A stretch of DNA of 64,000 nt from Pagrus major (Eukaryota; Chordata; Actinopteri; Spariformes; Sparidae). Position 1 is the stretch's first letter; the number at the start of each line of letters is the position of its first letter. The DNA lies in contig NC_133230.1 of NCBI RefSeq assembly GCF_040436345.1, positions 12,038,197 to 12,102,196 of the forward strand. The letters are read 5' to 3'. The notes under the pieces were generated by a model. That model searched no databases. It had not been told where the DNA came from and was given only the letters and a program-made list of their open reading frames with translations. The position numbers and the translations under genes are program-made. This document shows positions 6,120 to 62,959 of the stretch, piece after piece.

Positions 6120-6990
6120 GAATGACTGAATACATTCAACACTCACTAAAGTACAATTTTGGTAGGTACTTATACTCTACTCTCTACTTCTACTCCTACA
6201 TTTTGGATGCAGATATATTTATTTGAATGCTTTTGTTACTTTTCAGATTGAGATTATAAATACTAAATATAATTTAGTTAATAAATAATGATGTGAAATT
6301 AGTGAATAAGTATTGTACGTAAATACAAACTTGAGGTTCTTATACGCTGCTTGAGTATTTCATTTTTCTGCTACTTTATACTGCCACTTCACTGTATTTT
6401 GGATACAAAAAAACTTACAGTGATGGAATGTAGCTAAGTATATTTACTCAAGTACTGTACTTGAATACACACTTGAGCTACTTGTACTTTGCTTGAGTAT
6501 TTCCATTTCCTGCTACCTTGTACTTCTACTCCTCTGCATTTTGGATCCAAATATATTGACAGTAATGAATGTAACTAAGTACATTTACTCAAGTACAGTT
6601 CTTACAATTTGGGGCTCTATTCTGAACCCACCAAGGTAAATACAATTAACTACATTTATATTGACTGTCATGGAAAGTAAATTTACTCAAGTAATGTACT
6701 TAAATTAAATGTACTTGAGTATTTTCGGCTACTTTATACTGCCACTTCACTGCTTTTTGGTTTAAAGTATACTGACAATGATGGAATGTAACTAAGTATA
6801 TTTACTTAAGTACAATACTTTACAAATTTCTGTACTGCACTAACCTTACTTGATTATTTCCATTTTCAGCTATTTTATACTCCTCTACATTTTTACACAT
6901 ACTTTACTGTTACTTGTACTTTTTAAACTTAAGTACATTTAATATCTAAGTACTATTTGTATGGGTGACTTTCACTTATTTACCAAAGTA
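6120..6990. repeat. Degenerate AAGTACTGTACTT dispersed repeat, several partial copies
   Basis: The segment repeats the phrases TAACTAAGTACATTTACTC, AAGTACTGTACTT and TTTCTGCTACTTTATAC at irregular spacing, at least four times, just upstream of pithd1. The same family recurs at 12050-12720 and as a fragment near 17100-17225. Its short self-complementary core suggests a MITE family that has inserted into itself. No coding content. Confidence 0.75.
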
Positions 6991-7211: not shown

Positions 7212-9297
7212 ATGTCCGGCCACGGTCACGGACACGGACCCGGACAGGGCTGCGGGTGTGCGGCGGAGCACGAGCCCGCGGAGAGGGGCCTGGAGTACGG
7301 ACTGTATCAGCGGATCGACCTGGAGAAGCTGCAGTGCCTGAACGAGAGCAGAGACGGAGACGGAAAGCTGGTGTTCAAACCGTGGGACCGGCGGAACGAG
7401 CGGGACACGGTAACTGTCCGTCTGTGTCCCCTGTGGTGGGACAACAGAGTAAAAAGAAGTTACACGGGTGTCCGCTGCCTGTGTGGCCGCGGTGAGAGCG
7501 CAGGTCTGCGGGGCTGCTGGAGCTGAGAGCCTCGCTGTTGGGGCTGCGCACGCAGTCATTCAACACAACTTTATTAATACCACCGAGGCTGACAGATTAC
7601 AGTAGTCACGACAATAGCAGCCTGACCTCAATTTGGGAACACAAGAGTAACAATACTACAGCGCTTTTACATGTAAACTATTTTTTAACTTGCAATAGTA
7701 AAAGTATTGTCATCAAAACGTCACAAGAAAAGGCACTCATTCAGCAGAAAAGACTATTTGATAATAATAATAATAATAATAATGTGCAACTCTTTGTTTT
7801 CATGACTGAATAAACAAACTGACCATAAAGGACGAATTTCCTACTGCCTTACTTACTGTTTGTATGTGGCGGACCCTGCCACCTTTCTAGCTTCAAACAG
7901 TGTTCTGGAGACCTTATTTTCCTCTGAGAACAGCTTGTTTATTCCATCATGGAAAAACAAATATTTCTGAGTTTGTATTATTACCTCATTAATATTGTAA
8001 ATATCAAAATTCTGAGTTTGATTTTCTTCTCCAAACGTTCCAGTGCGTTCAGTTGTTTCATTTATTTATCAGCATCGTATCACTTTATTGATATGATGCT
8101 TTATACGACACAAAAATAAACAGATATGTTTGTGTCGTCATTGTTGTGACTCATTTATATTTTTTGTTTTAGTATGTCGAGAGCGACGCAGATGAAGAGC
8201 TGCTGTTTAACATCCCGTAAGTCCTAAAATCATCATCATAATTATCATCATGATTAGTCTTAGCTTTAAACCTTTCTCCTGTGTGAACAGATGTTTAGCT
8301 TTCTGAGTTTCTGACTTCTTCTTGTCTGTCACAGTGTCCTGTTTTTTTCTGTCTCTTTGTGGTTTTACCTTGTTGTTGTCAAAGACTGCAGCAAATGTGT
8401 CATCTCTTTCAGTTTTACCGGCAGCGTGAAGCTGAAAGGCATCATCATCTCTGGAGAAGATGACGACTCTCATCCGGCTGAGATACGACTGTGAGTGTCT
8501 GTCACTGCTTCTTTGGTTATTTATTTTTAATATTTACATGTTATTTAACCTTTATTTTCCAAGGAACATTTCCATTTAGATCCAGAATCTCTTTTACAAG
8601 GGAATCATCTTCAAGTGCTGGACTGATTAGACCACTGCCATCACAAAATCATACAATATAAATCTTTTTGATGATCTATCCATTCCTTCTCTTATTGTAC
8701 TCATCTATTCTTATTTTTCATTCCAGGTACAAGAACATCCCTCAGATGTCCTTCGACGACACCGGCAGAGAACCTGAACAAGCCTTCAGGCTCAACAAAG
8801 ACCCCGTCGCTGAGCTGGAATACCCAACAAAGTGAGGGCATGAAAAGTTTCTATCACAGCAGCATCTTCCTATCAGATTCCCAAATCAACACTTTCTGTC
8901 TGTCTCTGTATGAGATGGCATCTAGACAAGCTGTTTCAGGCACACAAAGTAGCTTTAAGTGACACATCTGCCTGATTTTGCCTCAATTTCTAAGGCTTTA
9001 AGATTTGCTAACAACGTATAATTCAGGCAGTTTGAAGGCTGAACAGCAAGACAAAAGATAGATAAAGTAATGTAGCGTGTTGATACAGATTTTTGGGGCT
9101 GATACTGTTATTAAGGAGTAAAATATTGAGCTTGTATATAAGATAGATAACGTGCAAATCCTGGACGCTCAATGACATGATGCAGTGCAATCCAATCTCT
9201 GTGATTTGAGCAAAGAAGCGTTCAAAACGCAAGTGCATCCAACTCTGTCATGCTTGTTTTCACTTCATAGGGATGTGTTTGCATTTCCATTATTTTT

Positions 9298-12049: not shown

Positions 12050-12720
12050 ATCCTTTACTTAAGTAATGGTACAAACGCCACATGGTAAAAATACTCTGTT
12101 ACACTGCACAAGTACATTAATTCAGGTACTCTACTTAGGTACAGTTTTGTGGTACTTAATTTATTTGAAAATGTTGTTAATTTACTTGTGGTTTACTTTT
12201 GATACTTAAATAGGTATATTGCCAGAAAATATTTTTTTATATATAGGTACATTTAATATCAGATACTTTCAAGCTTTATGGGTGACTAAAGTAATATTTT
12301 AACATAATACCTTTGCTTTTAGTCAGTGATGGAATGTAATTAAGAACATTCACTCAAGTACTGCTCTTAAGTACAATGTTGAGGTACTTGTGTATTTCCA
12401 CTTTCTGCTACTTTTTACTTTCACTCCACTACATTTTGGAGGCAAATATTGTACTTTTTACTCACTTAGACTTATTTGATTACTTAAGTTTACAAGTTAC
12501 TTTGCAGATTACATGCTGCATCATAAGTAGCACATTTTTAAATTAGTTATTTTATCAGCAATCAGATACAAAAAAAAAGAAGCAGGCAAATTACTTATGA
12601 TACTTTTAGACTTTTACTCAAGTACTGTTCATACGGGCGACTTCAGCTTTACTTCAAGTAATAGTTTAATCTGATATCTTTATTTTTACTCAGGTCTGAC
12701 ATTTGGGTAATTTATACAAC
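12050..12720. repeat. AAGTACTGTACTT dispersed repeat, second cluster
   Basis: Same family as 6120-6990: GATGGAATGTAATTAAGAAC, ACTCAAGTACTG and CTACTTTTTACTTTCACTCC recur, with at least two partial copies head to tail. It lies upstream of the lypla2 promoter. Confidence 0.75.
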
Positions 12721-27584: not shown

Positions 27585-28080
27585 AGTGGTTTAAATGGAC
27601 TTGCTCCTTCACGGGACTATCTGTGCATTCAAGTGCTGTTGGAATTATTAGGAAAATCCATGTGAATGCCCTCTAAAGTCGGACGGACACACCAATTATC
27701 ACGCAAATACTGGAAACAGGTCTCAACGTGTTGTCTAAACGCTCTGAGATAAAATGTAAAATAACTTCTTTCTGGCGTCCATGTAGGTCGCGCAATCCGA
27801 CATGACGCGCATGAACACACCAAAGTCGGAAGAACGACTTTTGGAAATGGGACCGTCCGAGGAGCACCTGAATGCAGCATCTGAACCGGTGACTCCTCCC
27901 CCTGAGCAGCGGACCAATGAGCGGAGCCGGGCGGCTCTCGGGTCTCTCTGTACTGGAGAAAGAAAGACACACGACGGTTAGTCGCCATTTTAAGAAGCTC
28001 GAGCTGCCGCTACACTCGTAGGAAGCGGTTGTTACGCAGCACAATTATTACGTTTTTAGTCTTTGCTGATATAAGGATCA

Positions 28081-31000
28081 ATGTCTCGATTTAACCATAA
28101 TCGCGGTGGCTTTGGGATGAATAACTTCCAGCCACGCAGAGGTGGGGTCGGTGGTCCGATGCGGGGTGGACTAATGGGAAATCCAAATTTTAGGAGCCAT
28201 CCTTTCCAGAATCAGAACCAAAATCGGAGAGGGGGAAATAACTTCAACAGAGGACCCAATCAGGGACCACATGGGACCCCCCAGAAGCCACAACAGAACC
28301 AGTCTCTGCCGATCATCCCTCCGCCGAGTCCCGGCCCGGCTCTCACAATGAAAGGCCCGATGCAGCAGCAGCAGAAACCGGCACCGCAACAGCAGGATCA
28401 GCAGCAACCGAAACAGACACCACCATCGCCCACACCGAAGATTCAGACACCTCCACCTAAACCAAACGTCAGCTCTCCTCAACCTAACCAGGCAAACAAG
28501 ACCCAGACTCCGAACCAGCAGCTGAAGTCGCCGGTGGGAAATACAAACGGCCAGCAGCAGAAGCAGACTCCTCTCCCCAGCCCGAAGCCAGCGCCCCAGC
28601 AGGGCCAGAGAAATAGCCCTCAACAGGGCCAGAGAACCCCTCACCAAGGCCAGAAGTCAGGCCCTCACCAAGGCCAGAAGTCAGGCCCTCAACATGGCCA
28701 GAAGACAGGCCCTCAGCAAGGCCAGAGGACAGGACCACCACCGATGAGGCCCAAACAGGAGCGGCAGGAGTCGGAGAAAATGAGCACAGACAGCGCTGCA
28801 GGCGATTCAATTGGGAGCCAGCTAAAGGTGTGTGTAATTCTTTGTAATATACATTTTGTTGAGGATGGCGTCGATAGTCTTTGTTGTTAGCTAAGCTAAT
28901 GCTAGCTTATTCAATGCGACTAACGGTGCGCTTGTTTTGCGACATCTACCAGCCTGTGTGGGTGGAGTTTAACATCACTGTGTCGACTGCTATATGTTGC
29001 GTTGCAAGGCGGTGCGAGCTGTGACTGAAATCAAGCGCACTGTATTTTAGTCGGTTTAGCTGTCCGCCATCTTGTGTAAGACACGTACAGTCGCTAAAAT
29101 GCAAATTTTGTTCGGTTAAAACAAAGAACATGAAGTCTGTAACTGGTTTTGTTTTTTATCGTTTGATTTTCTTTTACACCAATTTAAATTTATTTTGTCG
29201 ACTTGTGTGCGTCACGTTTCCTAGACATGGTTTGAAGAAAATATAGGTCAAATTGGCTTTTCACCTACATTTTGTGTGGGGGATGGGTGGTTGGTCAGAC
29301 GTGTATGGACGTGTCGTGAGCACTTAAGCGAACACATTTTGACAATGAAATGACTAAATTTGAATATATGATTATATTTTCAGTCATGTGTGAATTTTAT
29401 CTACCCGCTGTTCAATATCCTTTGCTTGTTTTCTTTCGTTGTCCGAATATAATGGTGTTTGTATCAGCAGAGATTTGAGAGTTTGATTGTACGTTGTTGT
29501 CAATCTACAGGAGTTCACACTGTCCATGCTGCTTAAACCCGGTGAGAAGACGTACACACAGCGGTGTCGTCTGTTCATTGGTAACCTGCCCAACGACATC
29601 ACAGAGGAGGATTTCAAAAGGCTGTTCGCAAAATATGGGGAGCCCAGCGAGGTCTTCATCAACAAAGGCAAAGGCTTTGGTTTCATCAGATTGGTAAGAC
29701 ATCCGATATTTGTAATTAAATACATTTTCTGTTTAAGTTTATTCAAAGTCTAAAAAATTGTGAAGAAAATTAATTTGGATTGCATAGAAGCTCAACGTCA
29801 ATTTTATGTGTGATTTCTCGCAGGAGTCCCGTGCACTTGCAGAGATAGCGAAAGCAGAGTTGGATGACACACCAATGAAAGGCAGGCCCCTACGTGTCCG
29901 ATTTGCCACACACTCTGCGGCCCTATCTATAAGGAATCTATCTCCATTTGTGTCCAATGAGCTCTTGGAAGAAGCTTTCTCTCAGTTTGGAATGGTTGAG
30001 AGGGCTATTGTCATTGTAGATGATCGTGGGCGCTCCACAGGCAAGGGCATTGTTGAGTTTGCCTCCAAACCTGCTGCCAGAAAGGCCCTGGATCGGTGCA
30101 ACGAGGGTGTTTTCCTTCTTACCACGTAAGTACTGTTGAAGTGCATAATGTTCTTACGTCCCGCTCAATGAATCAATATGCCACAAAAAATGCATAAAGA
30201 CCTTGCTTATTCCTCTTTTCATATGGTCTTTTCAGGTCACCACGTCCTGTTCTTGTTGAGCCTTTGGAGCAGTTTGATGATGAAGATGGTCTTCCAGAGA
30301 AACTGGCACAGAAGAACCCCAGATATCAAGCGTAAGCATATCCCTATCAGTCACTTTTATTATGCAGGTCATTTCTTTCAAGTCATTGTTTTGTGTCCAG
30401 CAGATGGTGTGATGTGAGTGTGGGGGGTTGCAGTGGTATGGTCTGGGGATTGTAGCTGTTACAAATCAATCTTTTGTGTGGAGTGGCAGATGTTAGCCTG
30501 TGTAAATCAATTGAAAGGGGGAGACATTTGTTCACTCATCATTTTCAAAATATAGTCTGTAGTTTTCGTCTTTCATCTGAAAAGACAAGTCTATATAGGT
30601 TGTTTCTGTCAATACAGTCATAGAGCTAACACACTGTCTATTGTGTTGCTTGTATCTATAGAGAGCGAGAGGAACCTCCCCGTTTTGCTCGTCCAGGCAC
30701 TTTTGAATTTGAGTACTCCAAGCGTTGGAAGTCCCTGGATGAAATGGAGAAGCAGCAGAGGCAGCAGGTGGAGAAGAACATGCTTGAGGCCCGCGAGAAG
30801 CTGGAGAGTGAAATGGAGGATGCCTACCATGAGCACCAGGCCAACCTGCTCAGACAAGGCAAGTTCAGCGATATTATTGTCAGGTTTAATGAAGAAACAG
30901 AAGCCTGCAGCTGTTTGATTGTATTTCCTGGAGTACGTTAGAATTCATGTGCCACAACTTAAGATGTTGGTTTTATGTTTGCTATCAGATCTGCTGAGGC

Positions 31001-57434: not shown

Positions 57435-60400
57435 ATGGCGACTACGGAAACTGGCGATGGACATCAACGTCTGGCCACCAATCAAGACTCGTCTGCTGGC
57501 GCGGTAATTTTCTGCACGTTGTTACGGCTGTGTACATTCCTGATAACGTTGTTTATGTAAAGATGTTTGTACATCTTCGACTAGAGCAGCTGATTCATTT
57601 GCACAGCACAGTTTAGCTAGTGTGGTGTGCGTTACGCGACGAGAGTTAGCTAACCGCGGCGAGCTAACACAGACAGACAGAGAGGTGTGCACAGATGTAA
57701 GCAAGCTAGCCTTAGCTTAGCCAGCGTTGAGCTAGTTATCTTGTTTATAGGTCATTTAATCTGAAGACATGTCATTATCACATGGCTGAATTAAAGGAAG
57801 CGACTCAGACGGAGGTAAATAAACCATATTTGTCCGGATTGGCGCTGGGTTGTAGCTGTTAGCTAAACATCCCTGCAGCAGTAGCGCTATTTGTGTTTAC
57901 ATTACAAGAGCAGTGCTGCCGTATCAGCAACAAGCTAATCTGTTTTCTTCGTGTGGTCGCACAAAACGAAAATAAGGCTGAAGTGACAGCGTGTGCACGC
58001 AGTGTGTCAGTGTCAGCTACACTTTCATCACCCGTGTTTTTTCCACAGCTATCTGTTTATACAAGCACATCGGCTTTGATCACGTGTAAGCTGGCTGCAT
58101 TGTAAAGTTAAGTACATTTTCCACATGAGCATATTGCGATTAAAACGCACAATGAGCCTTAAAGGGACACTATGTAGTTTGAGAAGAAATTGAAACTCAG
58201 AACATTAATATTCACAATATTAATGAGGCAATGATACAAACTTAGAAATATTAATTTTATCCCATTACTGAATAAACAAGCTGATCTCAGAGGAAAATAA
58301 GGTCCCAGAACACTGTTTGTTTATATGTGGTGGACCCTGCCACACTTCTCGCTTCAAAGCACAACAGTTTGAAATTGTGCTGTCCTTTAAAGGGGTAGTT
58401 CGGATTTTTTTGACATGAAGTTGTATGACATCCTCACCATCAGTGTCGTGCATCAGCAGTGACTTTTCCCCCACTGCGTCCTGTGAGCCGAGGTCTGTCC
58501 CGCTGTTGTTGCTGAAGAAAGTAGTTCCGGCTAGTTTGCGGGGTCACGAAGATAAAGCGTTTTGCTTCAAAAAACAATATCTGTTCAAAAGAGTAAAACA
58601 TTTGCATCACAAAATCGTTTACGACAAAAAAGTCAGACCTCACGATCACCTGGCACTATTTCCCCTCCCTTCGTATCACTGCGCGCTTCCGCCTGTTGAC
58701 ACACGGCACCGCTCCGTCAGCTGTTTCACGGTGTTTACATGCTCGGATGTGCGAGAGAGCTAACGTGAGAGCTAACGTGAGTACTAGCGAGATTATTAGA
58801 CAAGACGATATATAAAAATGGTGCGGACTTGCAGTTATCCGGGTTGCAACAACAAAGGTCACACCAAGTCGCCGTATATACTTCACCGCTTTCCTGTCAC
58901 GGACGTTGCTATTAGGCAACTTTGGCTTCTTGCCATTGGCGTGAACACTGAAGCGAGACTGCCAAGGGTGAAAAAGCTTCGTGTGTGTAGTGCACACTTC
59001 AGCAAGGACGATTATGTTCCTATACGCCCAGGAAAGAGGAAGAAACATGTTTTGAAGAGCACTGCTGTGCCACGACCCCATGTAAGTACAACTACCTACA
59101 AGCTAAAGACGGTGCCTTTTTATATGATGACTGTTATTATTATTGTCAGCAACTATGTACTGTCTGTACAGAAACATATTTGTCACTGTCACTGTTGGTA
59201 GTAAGTAAAATGTAAGATATATTATTACTATTACTGTGTGTTGTGTGTGTATAAATGTTTGTATAATACATTTGAGATTCTCTCTTGTAATCTACAACAC
59301 AATATTTGATTTTATGTTTTCAAAGGCATCGTCCTTGCTGAAGTGTGCCCTACACACACGAAGCTTTTTCACCCTTGGCAGTCTCGCTTCAATGTTCAAG
59401 CCTATGGCAAGAAGCCAAAGTTGCCTAATAGCAATGTCCGTGACAGGAAAGCGGTGAAATATATACGGCGACTTGGTGTGATCTTTGTTGTTGCAACCCG
59501 GATAATCGTAAATCCGCACCATTTTTATATATCCTCTTGTCTAATAATCTCGCTAGTACTCACGTTAGCTCTCACGTTAGCTCTCTCGCACATCCGAGCA
59601 TGTAAACACCGTGAAACAGCTGACGGAGCGGTGCGGTGTGTCAACAGGCGGAAGCACGCAGTGATACGAAGGGAGGGAAAATAGTGCCAGGTGATCATGA
59701 GGTCTGACTTTTTTGTCGTAAACGATTTTGTGATGCAAATGTTTTACTCTTTTGAACGGATATTGTTTTTTGAAGCAAAACGCTTTATCTTCGTGACCCC
59801 GCAAACTAGTCGGAACTACTTTCTTCAGCAACAACAGCGGGACAGACCTCGGCTCACAGGACGCAGTGGGGGAAAAGTCACTGCTGATGCAAAATAAGGT
59901 CCCAGAACACTGTTTGTTTATATGTGGTGGACCCTGCCACCCTTCTTGCTTCAAAGTACAACAGTTTGAAAATGTGCTGTCCTTTAAGGTCAGTTTGTTT
60001 CATTCAGTTTATTAAGTCATCAAAAAAAGAACGTTTATTTATTTAGTTTGTTCAGGGAAAGAAAAATCTGTCTTTCTCTTCTGATTTACGTTTCTCTCAA
60101 AACTACAAAGTGCACCTTTTTAAAGGAACGGTTCACCCAAAAAATAGATTCAGTCAGCCAATTCTCCGCCGTTTGTTCACACAGAGCCAAGCAGCTCCGG
60201 GGTAAAAGACAAACCAGTGTGTAATTCACACAGGAAGCTGGCGCCGCGGCTTTAAAAGAGGCGTGACGGTACACGTCATGATGATGACGTCTGTGTGGTT
60301 TTTTTCTACGCGTTTCCCCCGGTGTCCTCCTGTTAATCTTAACATGCACCCACTGACTGTTTATAATCATATGGATGCTGTTATAATGTGTTGTGATGAG

Positions 60401-62959
60401 ATCCTGACCCACCAAATATCCTGGAAAATGACAAAGTTACGTTTTTCTCTAAATTACATAATCACCATCAGTCAACAGGACGCCGTCTGACTCTTTCACT
60501 CGCGGGGAGGGAGGCTGTTTTATGGGGGAAAGTTCACTGAAGTCTCGGTTGGGAGGGCTGACCTTCACGGTGATTTTTTTCACCAAGACAAACAGTTGGT
60601 GAGTTAAAGTTTTTTGCCGGGGACAGACGCTGTTTTTCGGGCAGAAATGTGACGAAGAGTCGGTCGGACAGACACTTCTCCACTTATAACTGTGGTATTT
60701 TTTTCCTCATAAGTTGTCAAAGACAGGACCAGTTACTACGTTACTGTTGTTTGGTCCAGTAATGTTGCTTTGTGGGACATTTATCTATATTTTGTTGAGT
60801 GAAGGACCTGTATAGTTATCAGACAGTGAACACCATCAGACCGACACGCCCTCGCTCTGCGCCGCCGGCTTATCCATTCACGCTGGTTCAGTTCGCCAAT
60901 GCTGCGCCTCTGATACTACCTCTGATACTACCTCCGGAGCCACATCAGAGGCGCAGCGAAATTTCACCCCTCGCCGCATCTGAGACTTTCACACAGAGGC
61001 GGATGCGGAGAATTGGCGCAGGATCCCCGCATGCAAACATGCAAGTGTGAATGGGGTAGTATCTACTTAGCCCCATGCCAGTGGAAAATCAGGTGAAGTT
61101 TTGTCATCCACAAAACATTTCTGGAGCTTCACAGCAAAACAGTGTTGTTCATTCTCCTGAATAACTGAAGCAAATGGGGACTTGTTTTAAAACGAAAAGA
61201 AAACAACTAGGGGAAAAAAATGGCTCCATACAGCTGGAAAAGGTCAGTACATCACTGAATTTTCCTTTTTATGCCATACTGTGGTGTCAGCTTTATTGAA
61301 GTCAATGGGAGATGCATGAAGAAACAGACTTAAACCCAACGTATCTACGTTGTAAGACTTCTGAGGAGGAAATGGCTCCAGAAAATGAAAGAACACACTT
61401 CAGAGAGCAGGTTAACCACTGATTTTTTTTTTTTTTTTTTTTAATCTACACGTTGTGCAGGAAAGGCTTTTGTTCACAGCGTGATTGCAGTCATATCAGC
61501 GGAAATCAGTCGGACCTACCCCGTTTGTTGACAATATTATTAGCCCTGTCAATCATTTGGGCAAAAAAAAAAATCAGTGGTTAACCTACTCTCTGAAGTG
61601 TGTTCTTTCATTTCCTGGAGGCGTTTCTTCATTAGAAGTCATACGATGTAGGTAGGTATGTTGGGTTTTAGTGTGTTTCTTCTTGCACCTCCCATAGATT
61701 TCAGTACAGCTGTCACCACAGTCTGGCCCAAAGCAAGATTCAGTGACGTAATGACACTTTCTTCTTTTTTAGGTTCCCGACCACACTTTGAGGGTGTAAA
61801 TAACATATTTTCAGATCTATTTGAGATCTCTGGGCTTCCAGAGACTTGGATTACGCTGGAAGAGCTGTATGAAGCCGTTTCATTTCATTTCTCGGTTGTT
61901 TTTCACGTTTTGAAATAAGTCGCCATCGACTTGAGTTGTTTAGGGGAACGCTGCAACACTGTTTTGCTGTGAATCTCGAGAAATGTTTTGTGGACTTCAA
62001 AACTTCTCCTGACTTTCCATCGGCATGAGGATGAATTTTTGGGTGAGCTTATCCTTTTAAACCTGCTCTTTCAGTTGTTGTGTCGTGAGAAATCAGCCAT
62101 GTGAAGTATCGTATTTAAATAAAGCTTCAGCATAGCCATTCAACTAATGACAGGTTTTGTTTTACATGCACTTCACACCAGACAAACCAGCAATATGAAA
62201 AACTTATTTCTTGAAGTATTATTCTGGGATTGTACAGAATCATTGTTTATTGTCTGACACAGGTGAAAGAGGAGACAGACAGAGAGTCAGTGGAAGCTGT
62301 TTCGCAGCTGGGATCATCAGTGGAAGCTGTCTCGGAGCCAGGATCATCAGTGGATGTTAAAGACCCAGAGCTTGCTTGTCGAGCTTCTCTGAGACTCTCT
62401 GAACGTGGAGAGCAGGACGACTCTGTTGCTGCTGAAAAAGAAATGGAAAGTAAAGAAACTGAACATAAAGAAACTGAGGCTGATGTGGGCCCTTCTCCTG
62501 AATCTATATCTCCTCAAAATCAACCCTCCTCACAGTCGTCTTTCTTTACAGAAGTCAGCACGGTTTTGGTTCAAGGTGGTGAATCAGATAGCACATCAGC
62601 GTCTGAAAAAGAGGTGAAAACTGAGGAAGACTCTGAGTTATACGATGAAAATGTTGCAGCAAAGGACAACAGCTCAGAGGAAAGTCTCACAGGACCCGAC
62701 ATCAGTGAGGACTCAAGTATGGACAAGACATCTGAACTCAAGGAGGAGACAACAAACACGGATGAAAAGCCGAACACAGAAATCGACACACAGCAGGAAA
62801 AGTCGTCTCTATCGAGGGTTTCAACAGCGGACGACCTTGATGAGATGATGGACATTGGTACAGTGGATCAGGTGGAGCAGGAAGCTCAGATGAAAGAAGA
62901 GGAAGTGAACTGTTTGATGGATGTGGAGAGCAGCCGTTCACCTGCCTTTTCTAATACAG
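57435..62959 (+). CDS. Acidic N-terminal part of a large gene, possibly zmym4-like
   Basis: Exon 1 (57435-57503) starts in CCAACATGGCG and encodes 23 residues (MATTETGDGHQRL...), phase 0, donor GCG|GTAATT. After a 4.8-kb intron packed with fold-back elements, exon 2 (62263-62959, acceptor CTGACACAG, donor ACAG|GTAAAG) encodes 232 residues rich in Glu, Ser, Thr and Asp. An internal duplication repeats SVEAVS and GSSV near its start. Near its end DDLDEMMDIGTVDQVEQEAQ stands out as a conserved-looking motif. No zinc finger is reached before the window ends. Human SFPQ is followed by ZMYM4, so a zmym4 orthologue is the best guess from position. The protein itself does not prove it, and a matrin-type nuclear protein would look similar. 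Confidence 0.6.
58157..58393. repeat. Nonautonomous element with TTAAAGGACA-type ends
   Basis: Starts TTAAAGGGACACTATGTAGT and ends GTGCTGTCCTTTAAA, whose complement begins TTTAAAGGACAGCAC, giving short inverted ends. A related copy is in pithd1 intron 1 (7858-8035). Its last 100 bp (about 58292-58393) reappear in direct orientation at 59891-59991. Confidence 0.75.
58818..59081 (+). CDS. Intact THAP-domain exon in the left palindrome arm
   Basis: 88 codons from ATG to a donor (CCAT|GTAAGTA at 59081/59082), phase 0. THAP consensus residues are all present: Cys5 and Cys10 (CSYPGC), Pro26, Trp36, Cys57 and His60 with Phe61 (CSAHF), and the AVP motif at 83-85. This is a complete zinc-coordinating DNA-binding domain. 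No following exon with a transposase catalytic core was found, so it is probably the 5' exon of a P-element-like transposase that lost the rest, or a nonautonomous relic with an intact binding domain. It lies inside intron 1 of the gene starting at 57435, same strand. Confidence 0.65.
59328..59522 (-). pseudogene. Truncated THAP-domain copy in the right palindrome arm
   Basis: Minus-strand copy of the preceding exon: MVRIYDYPGC at the start and VCRAHFSKDD at the end, where similarity stops at the arm border. It has lost the first zinc ligand (Tyr in place of Cys5 in the IYDYPGC segment) and the AVP end, so it is not expected to fold normally. Confidence 0.7.
59891..59991. repeat. Direct duplicate of 58292-58393 beyond the palindrome
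   Basis: AAATAAGGTCCCAGAACACT through GTGCTGTCCTTTAA repeats the sequence found just left of the palindrome, in the same orientation, with few differences. The right arm is cut off at CTGATGC where this copy begins. Confidence 0.85.
60118..61065. repeat. MITE end and mixed intronic sequence
   Basis: TTAAAGGAACGGTTCACCCA at 60120 is a MITE terminus of the same general type as 56131. No partner end could be placed. GTCATGATGATGAC near 60276 is a small palindrome. Around 60890-61010 a GC-rich tract contains the duplicated word CTGATACTACCTC. The open frame at 60799 is not supported. Confidence 0.45.
61066..62040. mobile_element. Fold-back element, about 1 kb
   Basis: The left arm (61066-61432) and right arm (61562-62040) are imperfect reverse complements. 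Landmarks: CCACAAAACATTTCT (61110) with AGAAATGTTTTGTGG (61979), ACAGCAAAACAGTGTTG (61131) with AACACTGTTTTGCTGT (61954), TTAAACCCAACGTA (61330) with its complement near 61660, and GGTTAACCACTGATTTTT (61410) with AATCAGTGGTTAACC (61572). The right arm has about 100 bp extra near 61770-61880. T-run and A-run flank the centre. No gene. Confidence 0.85.

Follow-up and report, generated by a model that had tools for sequence, protein, structure and literature searches.

How could two facing copies of a THAP exon come to lie on the arms of a near-perfect palindrome whose outer sides carry the same flanking sequence in direct orientation? The question was raised by the original prediction for one locus of the window, that is, of the whole stretch of 64,000 nt analysed here. 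The repeat finder detected two inverted arms (58449-59012 and 59328-59891) of 564 nt each that are 97% complementary and spaced by 315 nt, and the presence of facing THAP exons on them was confirmed. There are 18 mismatches between the arms, 13 of them transitions and 5 transversions (divergence 3.2%), with 12 of the 18 concentrated in 58806-59012. The direct repeat of the flank is also present on both sides, at 97 nt slightly shorter than the 58292-58393 and 59891-59991 that had been proposed, and its copies differ by 4 mismatches according to the repeat finder and alignment. Both copies terminate in TTAA (58387-58390 and 59984-59987), the left one being directly followed by AGGGGTAGTTCGG and the right one by GGTCAGTTTG. 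As predicted, the right arm ends exactly where the right flank copy starts, the A at 59891 being compatible with both, and it is devoid of the outer 59 nt and of the terminus of the element. The arm sequence occurs in only two copies in the window, with no three-copy order of forward, inverted and forward, and the locus does not possess both termini with a TTAA on each side, as an ordinary two-ended copy does. Simple insertion had been expected to leave only a short target duplication, and we agree, that duplication being TTAA here. The features are collected in Table 1. Adjoining the host repeat, 60120-62060 looks like another TTAA-bounded element, the third, whose short ends resemble each other (20 of 25 nt) and which contains an internal hairpin (61071-61433 with 61563-62030, 77-82%).

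Table 1. Features of the palindrome locus and its flanks (positions in the window).
Feature	Position	Strand	Description
Left host-repeat part	58159..58390	+	Older high-copy TTAA repeat, target of Kolobok-type insertion; ends with TTAA at 58387-58390
Left (original) 97-nt flank copy	58294..58390	+	Ends in TTAA
5' part of Kolobok-type element	58391..59327	+	Terminus TTAA/AGGGG, THAP exon 1, intron 1, first bases of exon 2
Left palindrome arm	58449..59012	+	From repeat finder and alignment
Left THAP exon 1, open frame	58818..59081	+	C2CH ligands kept; end inferred from GT splice donor
Inter-arm loop	59013..59327	+	Remainder of exon 1, intron 1, and a stretch resembling a splice acceptor
Right arm, inverted copy of left end	59328..59890	-	THAP remnant with Y at position 5
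J1, forward-to-inverted junction	59326..59329	.	2-nt overlap (AT)
J2, junction of inverted arm with left-flank copy	59889..59892	.	1-nt overlap (A)
Second 97-nt left-flank copy	59891..59987	+	Ends in TTAA, continues into native right flank
Right host-repeat part	59988..60123	+	Ends at TTAA 60120-60123

Relatives of the element were searched for in a genome of 785,883,843 bp in 25 contigs, the best 40 candidates being scored in the DNA searches, from which rare relatives may escape. A search for single-arm versions in the same genome had been suggested; the relatives found comprise a whole copy of 6,114 bp (C3, both TTAAs included), whose inverted ends of 362 nt (TTAA included) are 96% alike, and elements of about 1.33 kb with inverted ends, which make up most of the relatives examined and which correspond to the left 784 and the right 540 nt of the C3 copy. 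A second long copy is located on C23, with 98.6% identity across a compared length of 4,139 bp, and a search with the downstream exon detected only the C3 and C23 long copies (2 of 2 candidates). The left part of the window element is 95-96% identical to the long copies L009 and L011; the window follows two long copies up to ...AAAGGCAT, and the last bases of its left part, ...TTTTCAAAGGCAT, correspond to position 948 of the C3 copy, where exon 2 would continue. The definition of Kolobok elements includes a TTAA target and terminal AG / RR (PMC6004289). Target duplications of TTAA were found at both ends of the C3 copy and likewise in the 1.33-kb copies L012, L013, L015, and L020, the left junction in the window is canonical (TTAA followed by AGGGG), and AGGGATAG is present in the inverted repeats at both ends of the C3 copy, displaying the terminal AG. 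The THAP exon is present in the left part of the window element and, by translation, the same exon is found in L009 and L011. When three segments of the C3 copy were searched for a catalytic domain, one gave sub-threshold matches to MULE (0.0017) and DDE_Tnp_ISL3 (0.007) and the other two gave none of note. Judged by these sequence features, the TTAA target, the AG termini, and the THAP exon fit a Kolobok-type parent element. The family resembles the Kolobok superfamily in its TTAA target, AG(GG) termini, THAP exon on the N-terminal side, and several exons in the long copies, whereas the window copy differs in that its right terminus and the remainder of the gene are missing and a second left end is present in inverted form.

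The sequence into which the element inserted is itself repeated. A search with 58157-58390 yielded 1764 candidates, of which the best 40 were scored, and the long matches listed were 79-90% identical. Copies of this host repeat elsewhere continue from the left flank into the right flank, and its outer ends are alike at 31 of 42 nt. From the best 40 of the 1764, 30 host loci were cut, one of them being the window, which leaves 29 others. The insertion site is spanned by 21 of these 29, which display the site in its native empty form: TTAAGG is unbroken in 15, and the remaining 6 have point changes or small indels at the site. None of the 29 contained the 97 nt twice on the same strand (E 1e-4), which speaks against a pre-existing tandem duplication of the 97 nt within the host repeat, and none contained a Kolobok end (E 1e-8). 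Five states are common to both 97-nt copies of the window, each of them being present in at most one of the 21 other host copies; the left copy has two private states, the right copy has one, and at one site both are off the majority. Because five locus-specific states are shared, the 97 nt are this site's own left flank, which was duplicated locally. Another copy of the host repeat is located in the window at about 7.8-8.0 kb on the other strand. Host-repeat copies occur in two forms, the stretch after CTGTTTG being inverted in some of them (the 7.9-kb copy at 7801-8034, L039, L042, and L048), and the two forms, represented by 7801-8034 and 58294-58390, look as if they had been generated by a hairpin-mediated micro-inversion. 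The interval 6308-6893 contains several repeat copies, in tandem or close to one another, that have diverged (71-81%), one of them also resembling 12324-12449.

The junction strings of J1 and J2 had one match each in the 786-Mb genome when up to 2 mismatches were allowed, whereas control strings read backwards had no match in the genome; the uniqueness of the junctions together with the absence of control matches indicates that the layout is more than a chance arrangement. The left internal segment was found a single time in each of the 49 family loci examined (42 of them distinct in sequence), which are the best-scoring matches so that rare layouts may be missed. The ordinary arrangement, with the right internal segment and an inverted end on either side, is present in 46 of the 49, L068 and L080 among them having one end shortened by its outer 136 and 72 nt, respectively; of the remaining three, two are long copies that extend at their far end beyond the scanned locus, and one is a truncated copy (L076). 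Many genome copies with this same layout had been named as a finding that would make it a standard element structure, and no such repetition was found: with both junctions being single-copy and none of the 49 family loci sharing the arrangement, a standard element layout was rejected. The locus was also not assigned to a family of fold-back elements, for which dispersed copies of the same layout were looked for and J1 and J2 were found once each. Two exact patterns had no matches in viral contigs, and in a literature search on titles and abstracts no description of such a layout in Kolobok was recognised.

The open reading frames on both arms matched the THAP profile (PF05485), with E=6.6e-14 for the left and E=2.9e-10 for the right one. 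According to the translations, the left copy retains C5, C10, C57, and H60, which we take to be the C2CH ligands of the THAP domain, an assignment with which an alignment to THAP1 is consistent, so the left domain does keep every zinc ligand as had been claimed, and the right copy has Y at position 5. When 781 bp of the left side were compared with the family majority, 15 of 18 differences fell into a patch at 58806-59095, which comprises the THAP exon plus a few bases on either side. The contrast between 15 differences in these 290 bp and 3 in the remaining 491 bp corresponds to a hypergeometric P=6.6e-5 for an interval that was picked after inspection of the data; variability within the family is lowest in this interval (0.53% versus 0.74-1.51% in three other intervals). 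The right arm spans 10 of the 15 patch positions (58806-58948) and displays the majority state at all 10, and at 9 of them its state is universal or nearly so among 20 family copies. As the right arm does not carry the patch states, it was not copied from the left arm in its present form. Two explanations are available: the left exon was altered later, through conversion from an unseen donor or a cluster of mutations, or a different copy served as template for the right arm. A donor for the whole patch was not found among the best 40 of 130 candidates, the best other match to 58790-58960 being 95% identical, and single patch states occur elsewhere (58833 A in 3, 58905 G in 1, and 59095 C in 5 of 42 copies; 58828 C also in L093). 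In translation, the left exon differs from the majority at 10 of 88 residues, which is not read as selection. Elsewhere in the window, a long open frame at 28075-28890 is rich in glutamine, proline, and glycine and had no Pfam match at 0.001; from its resemblance we presume that it might be an exon of a gene for an RNA-binding protein.

In order to date the duplications relative to the insertion, private differences were counted. When the arms were compared with the majority of 20 family copies, 11 differences were private to the left arm and 7 to the right arm, and both shared one, namely the minority state 58527 C, which is also present in 6 of 42 family copies. With the 42 family copies as reference, there is no change that is private to both arms jointly. 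The probability of observing no shared change, given the 7 private to the right arm, is 0.17, 0.05, or 0.009 if the event occurred at 20%, 30%, or 40% of the time from insertion to the present; 3 of the 7 (58662, 58684, and 58705) occur in some other copies, and counting only the 4 changes absent from all other copies would loosen this dating. Divergence between the arms is not significantly different from that between the flank copies (18/564 versus 4/97, P=0.55), also when the arms are compared outside of the exon (6/357 versus 4/97, P=0.23). As no jointly private change exists, the duplication fits an early date after insertion, and both duplications fit one event soon after insertion, the data being few. 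The event had been predicted to be young, and in relation to the insertion this is correct, but the divergence of the arms is 3.2%, much of it within the exon-bearing segment noted above.

Failed gap repair is the most economical path to this arrangement, and we consider it somewhat probable that a young insertion underwent failed repair in which fold-back synthesis was joined to DNA lying 97 nt upstream, obtained from a chromosome with an empty site. A long Kolobok-like element of the 6-kb type inserted at a TTAA inside the older host repeat. For a young insertion, empty alleles should be common, and soon after insertion, while the empty allele was still common, gap repair would have been faulty, probably upon excision or breakage. 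The left chromosome end would have copied the element from a template as far as 59327, where synthesis would have switched to the opposite strand, with a 2-nt overlap, using itself (fold-back), the sister's strand, or that of another copy. Inverted synthesis would then have run toward the left end and halted 59 nt short of the terminus. Meanwhile, copying of the right side from the empty-site chromosome would have crossed the insertion point and extended 97 nt into the left flank, unless synthesis jumped there instead, and both sides would have been joined with a 1-nt overlap, the outcome being a palindrome with a duplicated 97-nt flank and removal of the right terminus. We infer the initiating break, the order of synthesis, and the empty allele as template. 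Overlaps of one and two nt are weak evidence and could be due to chance, and the family states of the right arm, in place of the patch of the left exon, argue against the view of a simple copy. In animal TIR transposons, gap filling with template switching is documented with overlaps, where present, of 1-36 bp (median 2), and breaks inside the transposons are favoured over excision for the cases described there (PMC8277862). The Pack-TIRs of that report resemble the window locus in short junction overlaps, a nearby template, and a single-copy product, but they capture host sequence, whereas here the filler consists of the element's own inverted left end and its own flank and most of the element is gone (PMC8277862). 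Of the two mechanisms originally put forward, the best fit is template switching in the course of repair; aberrant transposition into a sister copy is conceivable, with no direct support.

Two other paths could lead to the same final letters: an inverted triplication whose third copy was lost later, and a one-ended insertion. A triplication generated on the occupied chromosome by template switches in forward-inverted-forward order, consisting of flank plus element, inverted arm, and flank plus complete element, followed by precise loss of the third copy at TTAA, which would restore TTAA beside the right flank, accounts for the order observed (forward to 59327, inverted from 59012 to 58449, and forward from 58294, as in a duplication-inverted-duplication) and for the second 97-nt copy ending exactly at TTAA. 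We regard it as unlikely, as it requires a second event, the precise excision, whereas an empty-allele template yields the identical sequence in a single one. Small inverted triplications described in yeast and human cancer genomes share the forward-inverted-forward order and the short overlaps, but the window contains no third copy of the element, its last segment ends at TTAA and enters an empty-site flank, and its dimensions are larger than those given there (spacer 315 versus 30 nt; arms 564 versus about 150 nt; PMC13334657). If only the left end had been joined at TTAA, the free strand could have folded back and strand-displacement synthesis from the 3' end of the target could have copied the 97 nt, in effect a 97-nt target duplication. 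Such a one-ended insertion is compatible with the canonical left junction, the absence of the right terminus, and the roughly insertion-like age of both duplications; however, two-sided inverted ends are the ordinary state of the family (46 of 49 loci). We know of no example in Kolobok, which we count against this alternative, and hold it to be rather unlikely.

Transposition during replication might have led to re-replication of the element and its flank, followed by abortion and end joining, as in composite insertions formed by maize Ac ends. In these, transposon ends are accompanied by duplicated flanks of various, arbitrary lengths, and of the junctions mentioned one has a 3-bp overlap and one has no overlap (PMC4270019). 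The maize cases, however, are kilobases long and are built from the termini of two nearby Ac elements (PMC4270019), whereas a search of the remainder of the window for matches to 57500-60800 (E 1e-3) revealed solely the host-repeat copy at 7.8-8.0 kb, and we judge this path to be very unlikely. An assembly artefact, in the form of a fold-back misjoin, appears most improbable of all, given the 18 differences between the arms and the 4 between the flank copies, the start and end of the inverted copy within the element, and the absence of N from the window.

Failed repair with fold-back synthesis may have left traces at other copies. Two rearranged copies (C4 and C24) surfaced only in a search with the intron, in which the best 40 of 118 candidates were scored. 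In the C4 copy (L093 115-1001 plus L094 1-9; C4:2509114-2510009), element positions 1-808 are followed by an inverted part running from 441 to 329 and then by unrelated sequence, with no right terminus. Read from its letters, this copy is a second, independent left-end fold-back with other breakpoints. A copy of its left flank, of which 114 nt were examined, was not found on its right side. Its interpretation as proof of excision at TTAA was dropped, since its TTAA belongs to a repeat also present on C9 and C13, and this reading is also undercut by the left flank there being unrelated. In the C24 copy (L092 931-1582), an inversion joins element position 460 to 980 with a 4-nt overlap (GCAA, read by eye), and 221-351 are deleted; it was rejected as a second palindrome and classified as an inversion, because its inverted parts (1-220 and 352-460) do not overlap the forward part (636-980). 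Two fold-backs are insufficient to establish a rule, and it is a doubtful idea that Kolobok ends are prone to one specific failure, namely that the left end folds back when only half repaired and is then joined to a copy of the empty allele.

If this idea were true, fold-back derivatives would arise repeatedly, each of them being located by its flank duplication, and they might be a possible first step toward non-autonomous elements with long inverted repeats. In other respects one dead insertion, the locus legibly records a rearrangement with two junctions at a vertebrate-type transposon. Since it is known what the parent element is, what the empty site looks like, and where the duplicated flank came from, the steps can be put in order and tested in relatives. 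The locus also illustrates how facing transposase exons can end up on a palindrome in a single event, which is a conceivable route to hairpin elements.
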